From the NCBI GenBank assembly GCA_023251235.1, contig JAHEZE010000024.1, positions 1 through 35,642 on the forward strand: a stretch of 35,642 nucleotides of DNA. Direction: 5' to 3'. The position numbers and the translations under genes are program-made. This document shows, one piece after another, positions 17,377 through 24,879 of this stretch. Origin of the DNA: Sphingobacteriales bacterium. Lineage in GTDB: Bacteria > Bacteroidota > Bacteroidia > Chitinophagales > Chitinophagaceae. The notes beneath the pieces were generated by a model. That model saw nothing but the letters and a program-made list of their open reading frames with translations. It had not been told where the DNA came from and made no database searches. The number at the start of each line of letters is the position of its first letter. Position 1 is the stretch's first letter.

Positions 17377-17546
17377 AGTTCTATATCTGTTTAATTGAAG
17401 TTAAGTATTATACCAATAGAATGGTTGTATGTAATAAATGAACCCGATCATTGAAATTATCCATGTTTATTTTGTTATTATATCAAGTTTATATTTAAGT
17501 TTACATTGTATTAATTTATGATTAACTAACACCATTGAATTCTTTC

Positions 17547-18710
17547 ATGCAACATGCATCTAAGCATACAAATCTTCTGAAGGCCGAACCATATTTTATC
17601 TGGGTACTGGCGCCGCAACTGGAAACCGACGATCCCAATCTTAAACACTATTACGACTTCGATGCAAATATCGGTGAGTTTACAAGAGCATTTAATGAAT
17701 TGAAAATGCAATGGAAATGGCAATACGTTACAATCAAGAACTTTAAAAGTGTCATTGACTACATAGCTGAATCAGCAAACGGGCATATTCCCATTGTATT
17801 TAATTTATGCGATGGGGATGAAGTAAACGGAGCACCGGGTTTATCTGTTATTAAATACCTCGAGGAAAAAAGTCTTATTTCTACGGGGGCAAGGGAAGCC
17901 TATTATTATCTTACGACTTCTAAAATCACCATGAAGCAAGCCTTTGATAGGGCCCGCATTCCAACAGCACCATGGTTGTCCATAACAAATGCGAAGCAGG
18001 ATCTTAGGGGGTATTGTAATAAAACGGGGACGCCATTAATTGTTAAACCGGCTGTATCCGGCGGTAGTATGGGCCTGGGTGTGAAAAATGTGGTGAACAA
18101 CGATGAAGAGCTTGCAACACTTGTTCATGAATTGTATAACGGTTATCATGGCTGGGATTTTACTTTCGGTGGGTTAGTTGCTGAAAAATTTATTACCGGT
18201 CCGGAGTTCACCACTTTTGTAGTGGGATCTTATAACCAGCCAAAACAAGCCTTTATTTATCAGCCGGTAGAAAGAATATTTAATAAGCGGTTACCAGAGC
18301 ATGAAAAATTTCTTTCTTTCGATCGTCTCTGGGAAACATACGAAGACGAAAAACCCTGTGGCAATGGCGTATATGAGGATTTTTATAATTATCATAAACC
18401 GGACTCTTCGCTGAATGATGCCCTCTGTAAAATAACATGGGATGCCTTTTGTGCGGTGGAGGGTACAGGTTATGGACGTATTGATATAAGAATGGATAAA
18501 GAAACAGGTAAATTGTTTATCCTGGAAGTAAATGCTCAATGCGGATTGAGCGAAGACGAAAACCACACTTCAATCGGGGCAATGGTTCGCCTGGGTAAAC
18601 ATGGATTCAGTCATATGGTCGGCGCAATTCTTGAAAACGCATTGCTTACCAAAATAAAACCGGCAACCGTTCGGAAAGCCCGTAAAAAATCAGTGAAGCA
18701 ACTTCGCTAA
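17547..18710 (+). CDS. ATP-grasp ligase, D-Ala-D-Ala ligase-like
   Basis: A 387-aa ATP-grasp protein. The N-terminal Rossmann-like part includes FNLCDGDEVNGAPG (85-98). The ATP-grasp core has VKPAVSGGSMGLGV (K167 and the SGGS loop), GPEFT with E219, and the metal-binding D312 and E327-V-N329 (RIDIR, FILEVNAQ). These enzymes activate a carboxylate as an acyl phosphate and join it to an amine. The loop after EVN differs from true Ddl (NTxPG), so D-Ala-D-Ala synthesis is unlikely. The tail is basic (KPATVRKARKKSVKQLR). It is a tandem paralogue of the next gene, 35 bp away. A TTG start at 17535 would add four residues; I prefer the ATG. Confidence 0.88.
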   Translation: MQHASKHTNLLKAEPYFIWVLAPQLETDDPNLKHYYDFDANIGEFTRAFNELKMQWKWQYVTIKNFKSVIDYIAESANGHIPIVFNLCDGDEVNGAPGLSVIKYLEEKSLISTGAREAYYYLTTSKITMKQAFDRARIPTAPWLSITNAKQDLRGYCNKTGTPLIVKPAVSGGSMGLGVKNVVNNDEELATLVHELYNGYHGWDFTFGGLVAEKFITGPEFTTFVVGSYNQPKQAFIYQPVERIFNKRLPEHEKFLSFDRLWETYEDEKPCGNGVYEDFYNYHKPDSSLNDALCKITWDAFCAVEGTGYGRIDIRMDKETGKLFILEVNAQCGLSEDENHTSIGAMVRLGKHGFSHMVGAILENALLTKIKPATVRKARKKSVKQLR

Positions 18711-18745
18711 AGATTTTTCTGTAACTATACATATAAATTGACTGT

Positions 18746-20209
18746 ATGAAGATTTGTGTTTTGCAACCCGACTATTCCCCTTCCAAAGTAGATTACCAGT
18801 ATTATGATCCGGCCCGTAATCTTTCATCTCTTATTCCTGAAGCTCAGGTGGATCATGTATTGGTAAATAAACTGACTACTTACAAACAATTAAAAGAGCT
18901 GAAGAAAAAAAACTATGATTGCTATGTAAACCTCTGCGAAGGATATCCTGATTGGGAAGTACCCGGGTATGATATATATTTCAATGCAGAACTGCTGAAT
19001 TTGCCTGTTACCGGGCCAGGGACCAAATTGTTTGATGTGCCTAAACGGATCATGAAATATGTAGCGTATTGTGAAGGAGTAAGAATCCCGGCATACACAC
19101 TTATTCATTCAATGAATGAAATAGAGAAGAATATTACTCATTTAAACTATCCTCTCTTTGTAAAACCGGCGCATATCGGGGACAGCATCGGTGTAGATGA
19201 ACATTCTCTCATACATAATAAAGAAGAGCTTTTAAAAAAATGTTCTACAATCATTGATGAATATGGTCCGCTGTTAATTGAAGAATATATTGCCGGCAGA
19301 GAATTTACTGTACTGGTGGCGGCAAATGCGGAAAACGAAAAAGAGTGCACGGTCTTCAGGCCAATAGAATATATTTTTCCTGAAGGAAAGGAATTTAAAA
19401 CCTATGCGCTCAAAACTTCTGAACTTCATCCCGATTGCAATCATGCCTGTGATGATCCTGAACTGGATAAACAACTACGTGAAGCGGCCCGCAGAATTTT
19501 TATTGGATTCGGTGGTGTTGGTTATGCAAGAATGGATTTCAGGGTGAATGATAAAAATGAAGTTTATTTTCTGGAACTCAATTTTACCTGCTCTGTTTTT
19601 TATACCGATGGTTATGAAGGTTCGGCTGATTTTATTTTAAAGTTTGATGGCATTGGTCAGGCTGGATTCTTACGACATATTATTAAAGAGGCAATAGCAC
19701 GTCATCAGCGGAAACAAAATTGTTTTGATATTCGGGGCAATTCCATTTCAGGATTTGGAATTTATGCCAACGGGGATTTAGTGGCAGGAGATATCGTTTT
19801 TAATGGCGAAGAAAAATCACAACGATTGGTTACCCGCCGGCACGTTAATCAGAACTGGAGCGAAAATGATAAAGAACATTTCCGTCGTTATGCCTATCCT
19901 ATCAGCAAAGAAGTTTTCATAATCTGGGATAATGATCCACAGGAATGGGCTCCCCAAAATCATAGCTGCGATGCTAATTGTGCCTATGACGGATTAAATG
20001 TTATTACACTTCGTGATATAAAAAAGGGAGAGGAGCTTACCTTGGATTATGCCCAATTTTTGGATAAGAATATGGAGCCTTTTCATTGCAACTGCGGCTC
20101 AATCAACTGCCGTGGGTTAATAATGGGTATGCCCAACAACTCCATTACTCACCGTGAAACCTTATTGGTAAAAACAAATAAAGAGGTAAAAGCAAGAACC
20201 GGTTCATAG
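18746..20209 (+). CDS. ATP-grasp ligase fused to SET-domain methyltransferase
   Basis: A 487-aa fusion. Residues 1-320 are an ATP-grasp ligase like the previous gene: VNLCEGYPDWEVPG (61-74), FVKPAHIGDSIGV with K140, IEEYIAGREFT, and metal-binding D264 and E277-L-N279. Residues about 333-457 form a full SET domain: GFGIYANGDLVAGDI (the SAM-binding GxG start), N405-H406-S407-C408, LRDIKKGEELTLDY with catalytic-type Y435, and a post-SET C448-N-C450-G-S-I-N-C455. The C408 plus three post-SET cysteines match the zinc site of eukaryotic-type lysine methyltransferases. No known pathway fits; a lysine-methylating step coupled to peptide or amide ligation is an inference. Acylphosphatase follows 15 bp downstream. 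Confidence 0.9.
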   Translation: MKICVLQPDYSPSKVDYQYYDPARNLSSLIPEAQVDHVLVNKLTTYKQLKELKKKNYDCYVNLCEGYPDWEVPGYDIYFNAELLNLPVTGPGTKLFDVPKRIMKYVAYCEGVRIPAYTLIHSMNEIEKNITHLNYPLFVKPAHIGDSIGVDEHSLIHNKEELLKKCSTIIDEYGPLLIEEYIAGREFTVLVAANAENEKECTVFRPIEYIFPEGKEFKTYALKTSELHPDCNHACDDPELDKQLREAARRIFIGFGGVGYARMDFRVNDKNEVYFLELNFTCSVFYTDGYEGSADFILKFDGIGQAGFLRHIIKEAIARHQRKQNCFDIRGNSISGFGIYANGDLVAGDIVFNGEEKSQRLVTRRHVNQNWSENDKEHFRRYAYPISKEVFIIWDNDPQEWAPQNHSCDANCAYDGLNVITLRDIKKGEELTLDYAQFLDKNMEPFHCNCGSINCRGLIMGMPNNSITHRETLLVKTNKEVKARTGS

Positions 20210-20224
20210 ACGTAATTTGGTTTT

Positions 20225-20494
20225 ATGAAAACCATCCGGCTGATAGTAAAAGGCAAAGTGCAGGGTGTATTTTACAGAGCTTATGCAAAAGATATAGCCG
20301 ATCAGCTTGGCATAACAGGATGGGCGAAAAATCTTCCCGATAAAAATGTTGAAATAATTGTCACGGCAAACGACAAACTGCTACGACAGTTTGTTGAGCG
20401 CTGCAAACAGGGCCCGCCCAGGGCTAACGTGGATGAAGTAATCATTGAGGAGTTAAATATCGGGGAGTTCAATGGTTTCAGGATAATCAGGTAA
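20225..20494 (+). CDS. acyP: Acylphosphatase
   Basis: An 89-aa acylphosphatase of normal length. The phosphate loop is GKVQGVFYR with catalytic R18, and N36 in GWAKN positions the water. It hydrolyses carboxyl-phosphate mixed anhydrides in the cytoplasm. It lies 15 bp after the ATP-grasp/SET gene and 20 bp before an M1 peptidase gene, so it is almost certainly co-transcribed. ATP-grasp ligases make acyl-phosphate intermediates, which gives a possible but unproven link. Confidence 0.95.
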   Translation: MKTIRLIVKGKVQGVFYRAYAKDIADQLGITGWAKNLPDKNVEIIVTANDKLLRQFVERCKQGPPRANVDEVIIEELNIGEFNGFRIIR

Positions 20495-20514
20495 CTTCAA
20501 TAAAACTCCTTGTT

Positions 20515-22107
20515 ATGCGAAAATTTTTCTTCTCTCTGACAATCTTTGTTGCTATTCATCTTCCTGCACAAAATCTTAAATCTGGCGGTGTTCTCAAACC
20601 CGAACAGGCCATCATGGATATACGGCATTATACCGTTGCACTGGATGTGGACCCGGTGCAAAAATCTATTAATGGGTATGCTGAAATTGATTTTAACCTT
20701 CTAAAACCCACTGGTAATTTATTATTTGATTTCTGGCATGGGCTTACCATCAGTCAGCTTTGGGTAAATGGAAAAACAAATACTTATACTCACACCAATG
20801 ATGATTATATAAAAATTTCATTAGCACAGGAATTGCCCGTAGGAAAAGTGAAAGTGAAAATTGCTTATGCTGGTAAACCTGCAATAGCTGTGAGACCGCC
20901 ATGGACTGGCGGTTTTCAATGGGAAAAAGATACAATTGGTAATCCCTGGATTGCTATTACCTGCCAGGGCGAAGGAGCAAAAATTTATTTTCCCTGCAAG
21001 GATCATCCCAGTGATGAACCGAATGAAGGCGCCGATCTGATTATTACCGTTCCTAAAGGTTTAGTGGTGGCCGGTCCGGGGTTGCTTCAAAATGTAATTA
21101 CAAAAAAAGATAAATCTACGTATCACTGGAAAACAAATTATACTATCAGCAATTATTGTATTGTTTTCAATATTGCAAAATACAAAGTGACCAAAAGAAT
21201 TTATACAACTATTAATGGCAACAATGTGCCGATGGAGTATTATGTGCTGGAACAAAATTTAGATAAAGCAGAGCATTTGCTTGATTTGTATGAACAATCC
21301 TGTCACATTCAGGAAAAATATTTTGGCGAGTACCCGTGGGTAAAGGAAGCCATCCGTGCTTCTGAAACGCCGCATCTTGGTATGGAGCATCAAACCAATA
21401 TTGCTTATGGTAATAAATACAGGTATGAAAAATTAGGCGGCAAAGATTTTGACTGGTTATTACATCACGAGTTTGGACATGAATGGTGGGCAAACAAAGT
21501 CACTAACCGGGATTGGGCGCATATGTGGATACAGGAAGGTATTTGCAGCTTTGGCGATGCCATGGCAACAAGAGAACTGGCCGGCGAAGAAGCATACCTT
21601 AAAAGAATGCAGCAAACCGCCAGGAACATAAAAAATAAATTCCCGGTGGTAAGGGGTGATGAAGTGGATTCCGATAGCGCTTATCAAGGAGATATTTATG
21701 GCAAGGGGGCTTTCTTCATGCATACACTCCGGTATATTATGGGAGATGATGTTTTTTTCCCGACCATAAAAAAATTAGCTACCGATCCGCAATACACTTA
21801 TGACAATACGGTTGTTACTTCCGATGTTGAAAAATTGTTTAGCGCTGCATATGGCAAAAGCCTGGAACCCATTTTTCATCTTTTCCTTTATACAACTGAT
21901 AAACTGGAAGTGTATGTAAAGCAAACCGAAGAAAATAAATATTTAATTCAATTACTTAATCTTGATATGTCAATCCCGATAGATGTTCAGACAGATGCGG
22001 GTATTCAACGTCTCATAATTGATAAGAAAGGAGTATCTGTTACAAGTAAAACTGCCATACAGGTTGATCCCAAAGTGTATTATCTGAAAAAACTGATTAT
22101 AGAATAA
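20515..22107 (+). CDS. Exported M1 family metallopeptidase
   Basis: A 530-aa M1 aminopeptidase with a signal peptide (MRKFFFSLTIFVAIHLPAQ). The N-terminal beta domain (about 30-230) precedes the thermolysin-like domain: GMEHQ replaces the usual GAMEN exopeptidase motif, and zinc is bound by H318-E319-F-G-H322 with E341 (IQEG) 19 residues on. It lacks the long C-terminal helical domain of PepN and stops after a short beta-like tail. It is expected in the periplasm or outer membrane. Co-transcription with acylphosphatase is likely, and a second M1 gene follows by 52 bp. Confidence 0.93.
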   Translation: MRKFFFSLTIFVAIHLPAQNLKSGGVLKPEQAIMDIRHYTVALDVDPVQKSINGYAEIDFNLLKPTGNLLFDFWHGLTISQLWVNGKTNTYTHTNDDYIKISLAQELPVGKVKVKIAYAGKPAIAVRPPWTGGFQWEKDTIGNPWIAITCQGEGAKIYFPCKDHPSDEPNEGADLIITVPKGLVVAGPGLLQNVITKKDKSTYHWKTNYTISNYCIVFNIAKYKVTKRIYTTINGNNVPMEYYVLEQNLDKAEHLLDLYEQSCHIQEKYFGEYPWVKEAIRASETPHLGMEHQTNIAYGNKYRYEKLGGKDFDWLLHHEFGHEWWANKVTNRDWAHMWIQEGICSFGDAMATRELAGEEAYLKRMQQTARNIKNKFPVVRGDEVDSDSAYQGDIYGKGAFFMHTLRYIMGDDVFFPTIKKLATDPQYTYDNTVVTSDVEKLFSAAYGKSLEPIFHLFLYTTDKLEVYVKQTEENKYLIQLLNLDMSIPIDVQTDAGIQRLIIDKKGVSVTSKTAIQVDPKVYYLKKLIIE

Positions 22108-22159
22108 GATAGTAGTAATACCATTTTATCCATCAGGCCTTTGTTGTAATTTTCCATTC

Positions 22160-24097
22160 ATGAAAAGATTTTTTATAAGCCTGCTGGTTATAGGCAGCAA
22201 ATCCTTTTCCCAGCATGAAATTCCTTTATGCAAAACAACCGAAGATATTGCTTTCAACGAGAGATCTTCTTTTCAAAGAACAATTCTGGTGGCCAGATCT
22301 TCAGCTTCCTCCAATTTCCAGGTAAGTTATTATCGTTGTATTTGGGATATTGACCCTGCCGTTAGGGTTGTTAAAGGAAATATTACTTCGCATTTTACAA
22401 CCAATACAACAACCAATACGATCAGCTATGATCTTTCAGATCAATTGACGGTTGACAGTGTTTATTATCATGACAGTAAGACAAGCTTTTCAAGACCGGG
22501 AACCGATCTTTTGCAGATCAATTTTCCGGTTTCAATAAATGCCGGGCAAAAAGATTCGGTTACTGTTTTTTACCAAGGTATTCCCCCCTACTCTGGTTTT
22601 GGGACTTTTAATCAAACAACACACAATGGGGTGCCTGTTATCTGGACTTTATCCGAACCCTATGGTGCAAAAGACTGGTGGCCCTGCCGCAATGGTTTGG
22701 ATGATAAAGCAGATTCCATTGATATGATCATTTCCTGTCCTGATGCTTATCGTGCTTCTTCGAACGGAATGCTGGTAAACGAAACTGATAATGGAACCAT
22801 ACGAACTGCTTTTTACAAACACCGTTATCCTATTGCCTCTTACCTGGTAGCATTTGGAGTTACCAATTACAAAGTTTTAAATCATAGTGTACAACTTGGA
22901 AACATAAATCTTCCCATGATAACTTATTGCTACCCGGAAAGTGAAACTTCTTTTCAGTTGAATACGCCAAAAGTTTTACAGGCATTATCTCTTTATCACC
23001 AGTACTTTGGTGCTTATCCTTTTATCAATGAAAAATATGGTCATACCCAATTCAGTTGGGGAGGAGGCATGGAACATCAAACCAACAGTTTCATTATAAC
23101 ACCTGAAGAAAACTTGATGGCGCATGAACTGGCACATCAATGGTTTGGAGATAAAGTCACCTGCGGCAGCTGGCAGGATATCTGGCTGAATGAGGGCTTT
23201 GCTACTTATCTTTCTTATTTCTATTTTGAAAAAATTGATCCGGCTGGTCATTTAAACCGCTTAAAAAATCTAAGCAATTCAACTACCAGTGCACCAGACG
23301 GCTCGGTTTGGGTAAATGACACAGCAAACATTAACCGCATTTTTAGTGGAAGACTTTCTTATAACAAAGGAGCTTATGTGTTGCACATGCTCCGGTGGGT
23401 TTTAGGGGATACTCTTTTCTTTCGTGGAATAAGACAGTATTTGAGTGATCCGAAACTTGCTTATGGATTTGCAAGAACAGATGATTTAAAAAGAAACCTG
23501 GAACAGGTGAGTGGAAAAGATTTTTCAGAATTTTTTAAAGACTGGTTTACCGGGCAGGGATATCCGGCTTATACGGTAAAGTGGACACAGAACAATAATA
23601 GCTGGGCCAGAATTACAATCAGCCAGGTCACATCCCATGCATCTGTTTCATTTTTTGAAATGCCGTTAGCATTGAACTTTAAAAATGCCACCCAGGAAAA
23701 AACTGTAGTAGTAAATAGTAGTACTAACAATGAAATATTTTGGGAAAACATCGGGTTCAAAGCTGATACTGTAATAATTGATCCGGAATATTGGGTGCTT
23801 TCAAGAAATAATATATCAGTTAAAGAGAATGCCATAACGACAATGGTGAATGATATTAAATTATACCCGATACCTGCAACTACCGGGATTACAATACGGA
23901 TAAGAAATCCATCCGGCAACGATTTCCAACTCAGGGTTTATAATACTGCCGGGCAATTGCTATCAACCAAACAAGTGACAACTTCCGGAAGGGATGAAGA
24001 AATTCAATTTAACTTCTCTCAATTACCAAGGGGAGTATATTTGTTACGTCTCGAAGCCGGTGATTTCCATTTAACCCGCCGGATTGTTTTGAAATAA
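22160..24097 (+). CDS. Secreted M1 metallopeptidase with T9SS sorting domain
   Basis: A 645-aa M1 peptidase. A signal peptide (MKRFFISLLVIGSKSFSQ) is followed by the beta domain and catalytic domain: GGGMEHQ (exopeptidase motif), zinc ligands H322-E323-L-A-H326 and E345 in WLNEG. After about residue 560 is a type IX secretion type A sorting domain: KLYPIPATTGITIRI, LRVYNTAGQLL, FSQLPRGVYLLRLEAG, and the final TRRIVLK. The protein should therefore cross the outer membrane and be cell-surface or released. The upstream M1 paralogue lacks this tail and should stay in the envelope. Confidence 0.95.
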   Translation: MKRFFISLLVIGSKSFSQHEIPLCKTTEDIAFNERSSFQRTILVARSSASSNFQVSYYRCIWDIDPAVRVVKGNITSHFTTNTTTNTISYDLSDQLTVDSVYYHDSKTSFSRPGTDLLQINFPVSINAGQKDSVTVFYQGIPPYSGFGTFNQTTHNGVPVIWTLSEPYGAKDWWPCRNGLDDKADSIDMIISCPDAYRASSNGMLVNETDNGTIRTAFYKHRYPIASYLVAFGVTNYKVLNHSVQLGNINLPMITYCYPESETSFQLNTPKVLQALSLYHQYFGAYPFINEKYGHTQFSWGGGMEHQTNSFIITPEENLMAHELAHQWFGDKVTCGSWQDIWLNEGFATYLSYFYFEKIDPAGHLNRLKNLSNSTTSAPDGSVWVNDTANINRIFSGRLSYNKGAYVLHMLRWVLGDTLFFRGIRQYLSDPKLAYGFARTDDLKRNLEQVSGKDFSEFFKDWFTGQGYPAYTVKWTQNNNSWARITISQVTSHASVSFFEMPLALNFKNATQEKTVVVNSSTNNEIFWENIGFKADTVIIDPEYWVLSRNNISVKENAITTMVNDIKLYPIPATTGITIRIRNPSGNDFQLRVYNTAGQLLSTKQVTTSGRDEEIQFNFSQLPRGVYLLRLEAGDFHLTRRIVLK

Positions 24098-24111
24098 TTT
24101 ATAAATTTTGA

Positions 24112-24879
24112 ATGGCAAGGCGAAAAAAGAAATCTTATACAAGCTGGCAGTTCTTACTGGCCTTTTTTCTTATGTTGGCGATTATCATATTAGGATATGA
24201 ATGGTGGAATAGCCATCGTTCAAAGTTTGTACACTATGCAGCATTTGGAATTTCTATACCTGAAAATTTTTCTATTCATGGCATAGATGTATCAAAGCAT
24301 CAGCAAACCATTGCCTGGGAAGAAGTAGAAGCTATGCAGGTAAAAAATATAAAAATAGGGTTTGCTTTTATAAAGGCAACGGAAGGAATCAGCAATACCG
24401 ATGCACAATTTTACCGCAACTGGAAAAAATCAAAAAGGGCCGGGATGATTCGCGGCGCCTATCATTTTTTTCTTGCCACAAAAGATGGAAGAGAACAAGC
24501 AGAAAATTTTATTAAAGCAGTTGATCTGGACGCAGGTGATCTGCCACCCGTAGTGGATATAGAACAAAGCTTTGGGGTTAGTACTTCTGTTTTGAAAAAT
24601 GAACTGAAAGAATGGCTTGACGTAGTGGAAAATTATTATGGAGTAAAGCCAATGATTTATACAAATGTGGATTTTTATAACCACTATCTGAATAAAGATT
24701 TTGACAGCTATCCTCTTTGGACAGCACACTATTTTCAATACGACGCACCACACATCAATCGTAACTGGGCTTTCTGGCAGCACAGCGAAGAGGGCAGAGT
24801 GAATGGTATTTTAACTAAAGTCGACTTTAATGTTTTTAATGGAGATTCTACAGCATTCAGAAACCTGCTGGTCAATTAA
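24112..24879 (+). CDS. Membrane-anchored GH25 lysozyme-like muramidase
   Basis: A 255-aa protein with a basic N-terminus (MARRKKK) and one membrane helix (about 13-29), so an inner-membrane anchor with the enzyme in the periplasm. The GH25 barrel has HGIDVSKHQ (D59), FAFIKATEG, GAYHFF, PVVDIE (D149 and E151, catalytic pair) and VDFNVFNG. The family cleaves the N-acetylmuramic acid beta-1,4 bond of peptidoglycan. It starts 14 bp after the M1 gene and is likely in the same operon. Confidence 0.93.
   Translation: MARRKKKSYTSWQFLLAFFLMLAIIILGYEWWNSHRSKFVHYAAFGISIPENFSIHGIDVSKHQQTIAWEEVEAMQVKNIKIGFAFIKATEGISNTDAQFYRNWKKSKRAGMIRGAYHFFLATKDGREQAENFIKAVDLDAGDLPPVVDIEQSFGVSTSVLKNELKEWLDVVENYYGVKPMIYTNVDFYNHYLNKDFDSYPLWTAHYFQYDAPHINRNWAFWQHSEEGRVNGILTKVDFNVFNGDSTAFRNLLVN

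Follow-up and report, generated by a model that had tools for sequence, protein, structure and literature searches.

The stretch of DNA analysed here (the window, 35,642 nucleotides) encodes a 487-aa protein in which a D-Ala-D-Ala-ligase-like ATP-grasp part is joined to a SET and post-SET part. The key residues of the ligase, SET and post-SET parts are kept across 39 aligned fusions, so that both halves look, on conservation, catalytically intact in all complete rows. The same 35 genomes of the Chitinophagaceae sample carry the fusion, a second ATP-grasp ligase (ligase 2) and a stand-alone SET protein. In this family, the unit is therefore a cassette in which two ligases are combined with two SETs. 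In our estimate the chances are about even that the fusion is an enzyme of a small biosynthetic cassette making a short methylated, lysine-containing, peptide-like small molecule.

The fusion protein and its relatives

The preliminary description of this DNA had reported an ATP-grasp ligase fused to a complete SET/post-SET domain. The fusion was found to be real: the gene is one open frame, both Pfam domains scored above their cut-offs, and relatives were present in other genomes. Dala_Dala_lig_C matched fusion residues 124-279 with an E-value of 1e-20 (74.5 bits versus a cut-off of 24), and the SET domain matched residues 336-435 with an E-value of 1e-11 (45.4 bits versus a gathering cut-off of 22.4). 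The earlier placement of SET at residues 333-457 was backed by profile searches; KMT2D was aligned by a nine-fusion profile over positions 323-465 (E 1.9e-12). The solved relatives were D-alanine-D-alanine ligase (Ddl) enzymes for the ligase part, and BurB together with KMT2/ASH1L/SETD2 enzymes for the SET part. AlphaFold2 gave pLDDT values of 42.9 for the whole fusion and 42.5 for its SET part; the input consisted of five close relatives (60-81% identical), which is the probable cause of the low scores.

Table 1. Positions of the fusion, its parts and the other features discussed (window coordinates unless a contig or locus is named)
Feature	Position	Strand	Basis or remark
ATP-grasp-SET fusion protein, 487 aa	18746-20209	+	Single open frame, ATG start; Pfam; relatives
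D-Ala-D-Ala-ligase-like ATP-grasp part, fusion residues 1-320	18746..19705	+	Pfam, residue conservation, fusion profile
SET and post-SET part, fusion residues 333-458	19742..20119	+	Pfam, structure-chain alignments, residue conservation
Second ATP-grasp ligase (ligase 2), 391 aa	17535..18710	+	Pfam Dala_Dala_lig_C E 3.6e-13; ends 35 bp before fusion
Stand-alone SET of this genome	contig C29, 12267-12782		On another contig than the fusion
Third SET of this genome, 137 aa	G000:C170:8031-8444 (L118:3032-3445)		
Acylphosphatase	20225..20494	+	Pfam Acylphosphatase E 8e-24; 15 bp after fusion; in 4/39 loci (window, L005-L007)
Two M1-family peptidases	20515-22107; 22160-24097 (type IX secretion tail); span 20515..24097	+	Near fusion in 5/39 loci
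Asparaginase-like ORF, 167 aa	16303-16806		Match to asparaginase N-terminal domain only
Third SET of g148 cassette, ~120 aa	L086:6689-7045; also L083, L084, L085, L093		Beside ABC exporter
Close BurB relative, Eleftheria terrae plasmid	L100:7914-8435		
Aminomutase cassette	L088:7574-11459; also L090, L091, L123-L137, L139, L142		L124: one ligase beyond contig end

All motifs previously named were present in the window fusion: K140, D264, E277 and N279 in the ligase part, and GFGIYANG, NHSC, LTLDY and CNCGSINC in the SET part. The 39 loci that were aligned and examined comprised the window, 34 family-sample genomes and L005-L008, which may repeat some sample genomes. In the ligase part, K140, E186, R262, D264, E277 and N279 were invariant (39/39); such ATP-grasp residues (K, E, R-x-D and E-x-N) have catalytic roles known from Ddl. 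In the SET part, G336, G338, N405, H406 and C408 were likewise invariant and S407 was conserved in 36 of the 39. Y435, C448, C450 and C455 were kept in 38, the exception (L056) being cut by a contig end. From their layout, we take C408 and the three post-SET cysteines to be the four-cysteine zinc site of post-SET proteins. The key residues were kept in the orthologues rather than lost.

As a further possibility, the fusion could have arisen from chance read-through or an assembly error, or could contain a SET part that is a dead remnant. Stop codons were indeed flagged in the scanned stretch of three family-sample rows (G025, G053 and G010), but the frames fetched for these rows are still 467-483 aa long, so the flagged stops fall no earlier than the C-terminus. 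The other rows of the family sample have open frames, are 56-77% identical to the window protein and keep the SET residues. An artefact or dead remnant is therefore hardly credible, and is refuted by conservation.

When the same architecture was sought across genomes, relatives covering at least 420 of the 487 residues were found in 35 of 117 family-sample genomes. The fusion was also found in 17 of 395 genomes of the phylum sample, which overlaps the family sample; the window genome is included in both counts. The phylum-sample genomes belong to five families (five in f1, nine in f18, and one each in f24, f28 and f54), and five of the 22 matches obtained there at E 1e-20 were ligases only, without SET. 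All whole-genome searches were made within the phylum Bacteroidota. Beyond it, one genome-contig scan was run with six peptide patterns of one sequence: its named near matches were Chitinophagaceae or Bacteroidetes metagenome assemblies (68-80% identical), and its fifth match was a SET alone from Chloroflexi. Chitinophagaceae is the most likely source of the window. Of 72,556 plasmid records searched, 37 gave a match, which in no case extended over more than 80% of the fusion. One scan of viral contigs yielded matches to the ligase part only, and defence-system models gave zero matches to the fusion, ligase 2 and the stand-alone SET. The earlier remark that SET proteins are uncommon in bacteria agreed with a small check of 14 well-known control genomes, in which SET occurred in one, an archaeon.

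The ligase trees were built from a hand-picked subset of sequences. For the SET tree, 49 fusions and 40 stand-alone SETs were reduced to 16 and 14, respectively, by leaving out the truncated L056 and thinning near copies. The fusion ligase parts (16 used) formed one clade with support of 100/97, and the fusion SET parts (16 used) formed one clade with support of 91/99. Since each half forms a single clade, the trees fit a single origin of the fusion.

The cassette around the fusion

The preliminary picture stood as to domains, residues and fusion but was incomplete, since the family-sample fusion belongs to a cassette with a second ATP-grasp and a stand-alone SET. Ligase 2, directly upstream of the fusion, had been overlooked, as had two further SET proteins in the genome. 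Ligase 2 and the fusion share a strand in 39/39 loci, with ligase 2 upstream; the gap between them has a median of 30 bp and exceeds 500 bp in three loci. The stand-alone SET (~168 aa) precedes ligase 2 in 30 of the 39 loci, at a median distance of 2.5 bp. Across the 117 family-sample genomes, the fusion, ligase 2 (E 1e-30) and the stand-alone SET (E 1e-10) occurred in the identical 35, and none of them in the other 82 (Fisher p of 1e-30, uncorrected for kinship). The stand-alone SET was located near the fusion in 31 of the 35, and elsewhere in four, including the window genome. On a Ddl gene tree taken as a proxy, which covered 79 of the 117 genomes and among them 29 of the 35 cassette-bearing ones, cassette presence changed 16 times, at least three of them on well-supported branches, although this tree is poorly resolved and is a guide only. 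Two genera that were sampled twice differ (G004/G104 and G010/G110), and the genome lacking the cassette is without all three genes.

G322, a genome of another family (f28), carries the fusion on a different contig from the stand-alone SET and ligase 2, whose genes overlap by 4 bp. This arrangement suggests that the cassette is naturally made up of a split and a fused SET/ligase pair. The fused SETs, the stand-alone SETs and BurB stood apart in the SET tree, with long branches; these separate places imply that the two cassette SETs are not recent copies of each other. The 137-aa third SET of the window genome, in which no post-SET cysteine cluster was seen, was not grouped with the cassette SETs and sits on a long branch.

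A different arrangement was observed in g148, a genus of another family, for which six of nine fusion genomes were fetched. The stand-alone SET adjoins the fusion in 6/6, and a protein of ~580-690 aa and a third short SET then follow in five; the contig of the sixth ends at the fusion. No second ligase of the ligase 2 type was found in the three g148 genomes searched, nor in G321 and G446, in both of which the fusion is the only SET in the genome. The fusion can thus exist without the rest of the cassette, as in G321 and G446, which have it alone.

A lone ABC_membrane_3 subunit (PF13748, frames of 286-363 aa) was detected at E <1e-30 in 14 of the 117 family-sample genomes, all 14 of them cassette-bearing (Fisher 5e-9), and it adjoins the fusion in 13. 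Weak matches to the same family (E 6e-9 to 7e-4) occurred in 11 other genomes, none cassette-bearing; their frames are 589-631 aa long and were read as ordinary ABC exporters. The window genome has no lone ABC subunit, and no partner ATPase gene for it was recognised in the family-sample cassette. In g148, the large protein by the fusion is itself an ABC exporter (Pfam, one genome tested). With the lone subunit in 14 of the 35 genomes and a full exporter in g148, the cassette product is probably moved across or into the membrane. Plasmid relatives of the lone subunit in other bacteria had varied neighbours, with no SET or ATP-grasp in three annotated stretches.

A conserved precursor peptide was sought among ATG-initiated ORFs of 20-79 aa on the coding strand of the 39 loci, from 3.2 kb upstream to 0.9 kb downstream, a span that leaves distant precursors beyond its reach. 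No conserved small ORF suitable as a RiPP precursor was found in this span. Three small-ORF clusters were common to 29-31 loci, all inside or overlapping the stand-alone SET and ligase 2 genes, and the next cluster comprised 8 loci. A graspetide (RiPP) cluster, which would have a conserved precursor ORF near the ATP-grasp, was thus not supported for the span searched in the 39 loci.

Downstream of the fusion in the window, an acylphosphatase gene is a possible operon member, and a link of the two M1-family peptidases to the cassette is doubtful. Positions 17535-24879 hold six same-strand genes with short gaps (ligase 2, the fusion, the acylphosphatase, the two peptidases and a GH25 lysozyme-like gene), which could be one operon in the window lineage. 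An acylphosphatase beside acyl-phosphate-forming ligases is a curious pairing. Elsewhere in the window, the ORF matching the asparaginase N-terminal domain is kept at ~162 aa in four further related loci, and for this reason is probably a real short form, not a broken gene.

Relatives of the SET part and the methyl acceptor

BurB is described as a SET-fold methyltransferase of the sulphur of free methionine (PMC12542666). BurB (PDB 9l4t) was the best-scoring solved relative of both the stand-alone SET and the fused SET part. It resembles the fusion as a small bacterial SET enzyme with post-SET cysteines that is alike in the C-terminal half, and it sets the example of a SET acting on a free amino acid; unlike the fusion, it stands alone without a ligase and occupies a separate branch. 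The similarity detected by phmmer was limited to fusion residues 405-462. Orthology of the fused SET with BurB was abandoned as a reading, as BurB and its Eleftheria relative branch apart from both SETs in a tree with long branches and weak resolution. The fused SET was placed nearer to KMT2-type enzymes and some other bacterial SETs (87/91) than to BurB. The KMT2/ASH1L/SETD2 enzymes share with the fusion an alignment over the full length of SET and post-SET, the NHSC motif, the catalytic tyrosine and the zinc cysteines. KMT2A and KMT2D differ from it in having a tyrosine two residues before the catalytic tyrosine, where the fusion has an aliphatic residue, and the fusion is bacterial and joined to a ligase.

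This position was then compared among the SET groups, as the residue there may, we infer, bear on acceptor choice. Scoring by pattern succeeded for 46 of the 49 fusions, every one of which has an aliphatic residue there (38 Leu, 4 Ile, 2 Val, 1 Ala and 1 Met); of the three unscored, two show Ile and Leu on visual inspection and the third is truncated. The solved chains showed methionine in BurB, tyrosine in KMT2A and KMT2D, and phenylalanine in 6nzo. Of the 40 stand-alone SET rows, 31 were scored and 28 of these have phenylalanine, as do 5/5 of the short third SETs of g148; another SET of the window genome has Ile.

These residues bear on a reading in which one or both SETs, like BurB, methylate the sulphur of methionine, from which the ligases assemble a sulphonium peptide. 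It draws on BurB being the top-scoring solved relative of both SETs, on the aliphatic residue in every scored fusion where BurB has methionine and KMT2A/KMT2D have tyrosine, and on a close BurB relative in an Eleftheria terrae polyketide cluster. However, the resemblance to BurB covers the C-terminal half only and neither SET forms a clade with it; the stand-alone SET mostly has phenylalanine, like chain 6nzo; and the aliphatic residue recurs in another SET of the window genome. Taken together, a methionine route was judged distinctly improbable. The polyketide cluster around the Eleftheria terrae plasmid gene also includes genes for an aminotransferase and an aldehyde dehydrogenase, and is likely a second methionine-methylating SET cluster.

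A protein substrate was weighed in the same way. The ATP-grasp would add an amino acid to a protein in the style of tubulin tyrosine ligase, the SET would methylate a lysine there, and ligase 2 and the second SET would act on the same or another target. BurB aside, every solved SET chain matched by the fused part is named as a protein lysine methyltransferase. In eukaryotes, TTLL12 joins a SET-like and an ATP-grasp-type ligase domain in one protein, both of which are reported to lack critical amino acids (PMC3520985). TTLL12 differs from the fusion in having SET first, a tubulin-tyrosine-ligase type of ligase, a eukaryotic host and the missing critical amino acids. A TTLL12- or TTL-type ligase was rejected for the fusion: its ligase is of the D-Ala-D-Ala type, and no TTL family appeared among the Pfam matches up to E 0.01. 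Moreover, the paired ligases and the transporter subunit suit a small molecule better, and no further gene able to encode a target protein was conserved across most of the 39 loci. As the tree puts the fused SET closer to the KMT2 type than to BurB, a protein substrate stays in consideration; it was rated as unlikely but worth retaining.

The ligase part and the proposed function

Ddl enzymes, the best solved relatives of the ligase part, share with it the ATP-grasp domain and the acyl-phosphate-forming residues. They differ in having GGxSxE, the N-terminal substrate signature of Ddl, in scoring above the TIGR01205 cut-off and in having no SET domain. The fusion reached 78.5 bits against TIGR01205, below the cut-off of 245.65, whereas the genome's own Ddl scored 277.5. 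The N-terminus of the fusion, MKICVLQPDYSPSKVDYQYYDP, is without GGxSxE, while the own Ddl has GGFSGEAVIS.

A second cassette with paired ATP-grasps was found in other Bacteroidota, in which two adjacent Ddl-like ATP-grasps are accompanied by a GNAT acetyltransferase and a lysine-2,3-aminomutase-like radical SAM enzyme. Of the 395 phylum genomes, 116 gave matches to its second ligase or a paralogue at an E-value of at most 1e-30; 25 loci, mostly the best-scoring among these matches, were chosen by hand. Both ligases were present in 19 of them, and in L124 a contig end after the second ligase cuts off one ligase; all 20 have the GNAT and the KamA-family enzyme. The five other loci have a single ligase and neither GNAT nor aminomutase. 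The best match of the KamA-family enzyme was lysine 2,3-aminomutase, at 466-473 bits versus a curated cut-off of 525.4 (three tested). This cassette looks like a pathway for a beta-lysine-type peptide or solute; it was not found among the top-ranked matches of literature searches on aminomutase with ATP-grasp or Bacteroidetes.

Like the fusion cassette, the aminomutase cassette has two adjacent Ddl-like ATP-grasps followed by lysine-tailoring-looking enzymes. It differs in having an aminomutase and an acetyltransferase in place of the SETs, and the ligases are not grouped gene by gene. When fusions are set aside, three of the five top phylum-sample matches to the fusion (G282, G120 and G353) are ligases of the aminomutase cassette; the other two (G298 and G187) do not lie beside an aminomutase. 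A hint from profile scores that the ligase pairs of the two cassettes are positional orthologues was not upheld, as the tree grouped each cassette's ligases together (a quick method, with a long-branch warning). Neither aminomutase nor GNAT was matched at E 1e-10 in the ORFs of the 39 fusion loci.

The ATP-dependent formation of acyl phosphates and amide bonds is established for the ATP-grasp superfamily. In the proposed scheme, each ATP-grasp would use ATP to activate a carboxylate as an acyl phosphate and couple this to an amine, which yields a short peptide-like amide, and each SET would use S-adenosylmethionine to methylate a side chain of a building block or of the joined product. The ligase-SET fusion would couple one methylation to one ligation. 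The combination suggested before, in which the fusion would ligate an amine or amino acid and would also methylate a lysine-type amine, is plausible. In favour of a small-molecule substrate, the ligases are paired, a transporter is linked to the cassette, no conserved precursor ORF was found in the span searched, and BurB sets a precedent. The acceptor would most likely be a lysine side-chain amine within a small molecule, yielding methyl- or trimethyl-lysine units, with the methionine sulphur as the alternative. Lysine is favoured as the usual target of the SET fold and by the likeness to the aminomutase cassette, which speaks for it only by analogy. The product might be a solute, a signal or an antibiotic-like peptide. 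More specifically, we tentatively propose, as a possible though rather doubtful extension, that SET-fold enzymes tailor free lysine or a lysyl dipeptide, fused to a peptide-building ligase, and so make trimethyl-lysine (quaternary-ammonium) peptides in Bacteroidota.

Literature searches on ATP-grasp with SET domain, which scarcely covered subscription journals, returned TTLL12 only and no bacterial fusion of this kind. The architecture was absent from the top-ranked matches of searches on ATP-grasp with S-methylmethionine, SET with biosynthesis and SET with Chitinophaga. Comparative-genomic surveys of ATP-grasp amidoligases and of SET domains exist and may mention this fusion. In the literature searched, the two-ligase, two-SET cassette is thus unnamed; the fusion is conserved with both sets of catalytic residues, and the function proposed for it is a prediction from these sequences.

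SET domains have been studied mainly as chromatin enzymes, and BurB was the sole small-molecule SET with a solved structure met in this analysis. The conserved cassette would suggest that the SET fold was recruited for small-molecule synthesis beyond BurB, which bears on the roles of SET proteins in bacteria. As a set of three or four genes, the cassette could be expressed in search of a new class of metabolites.
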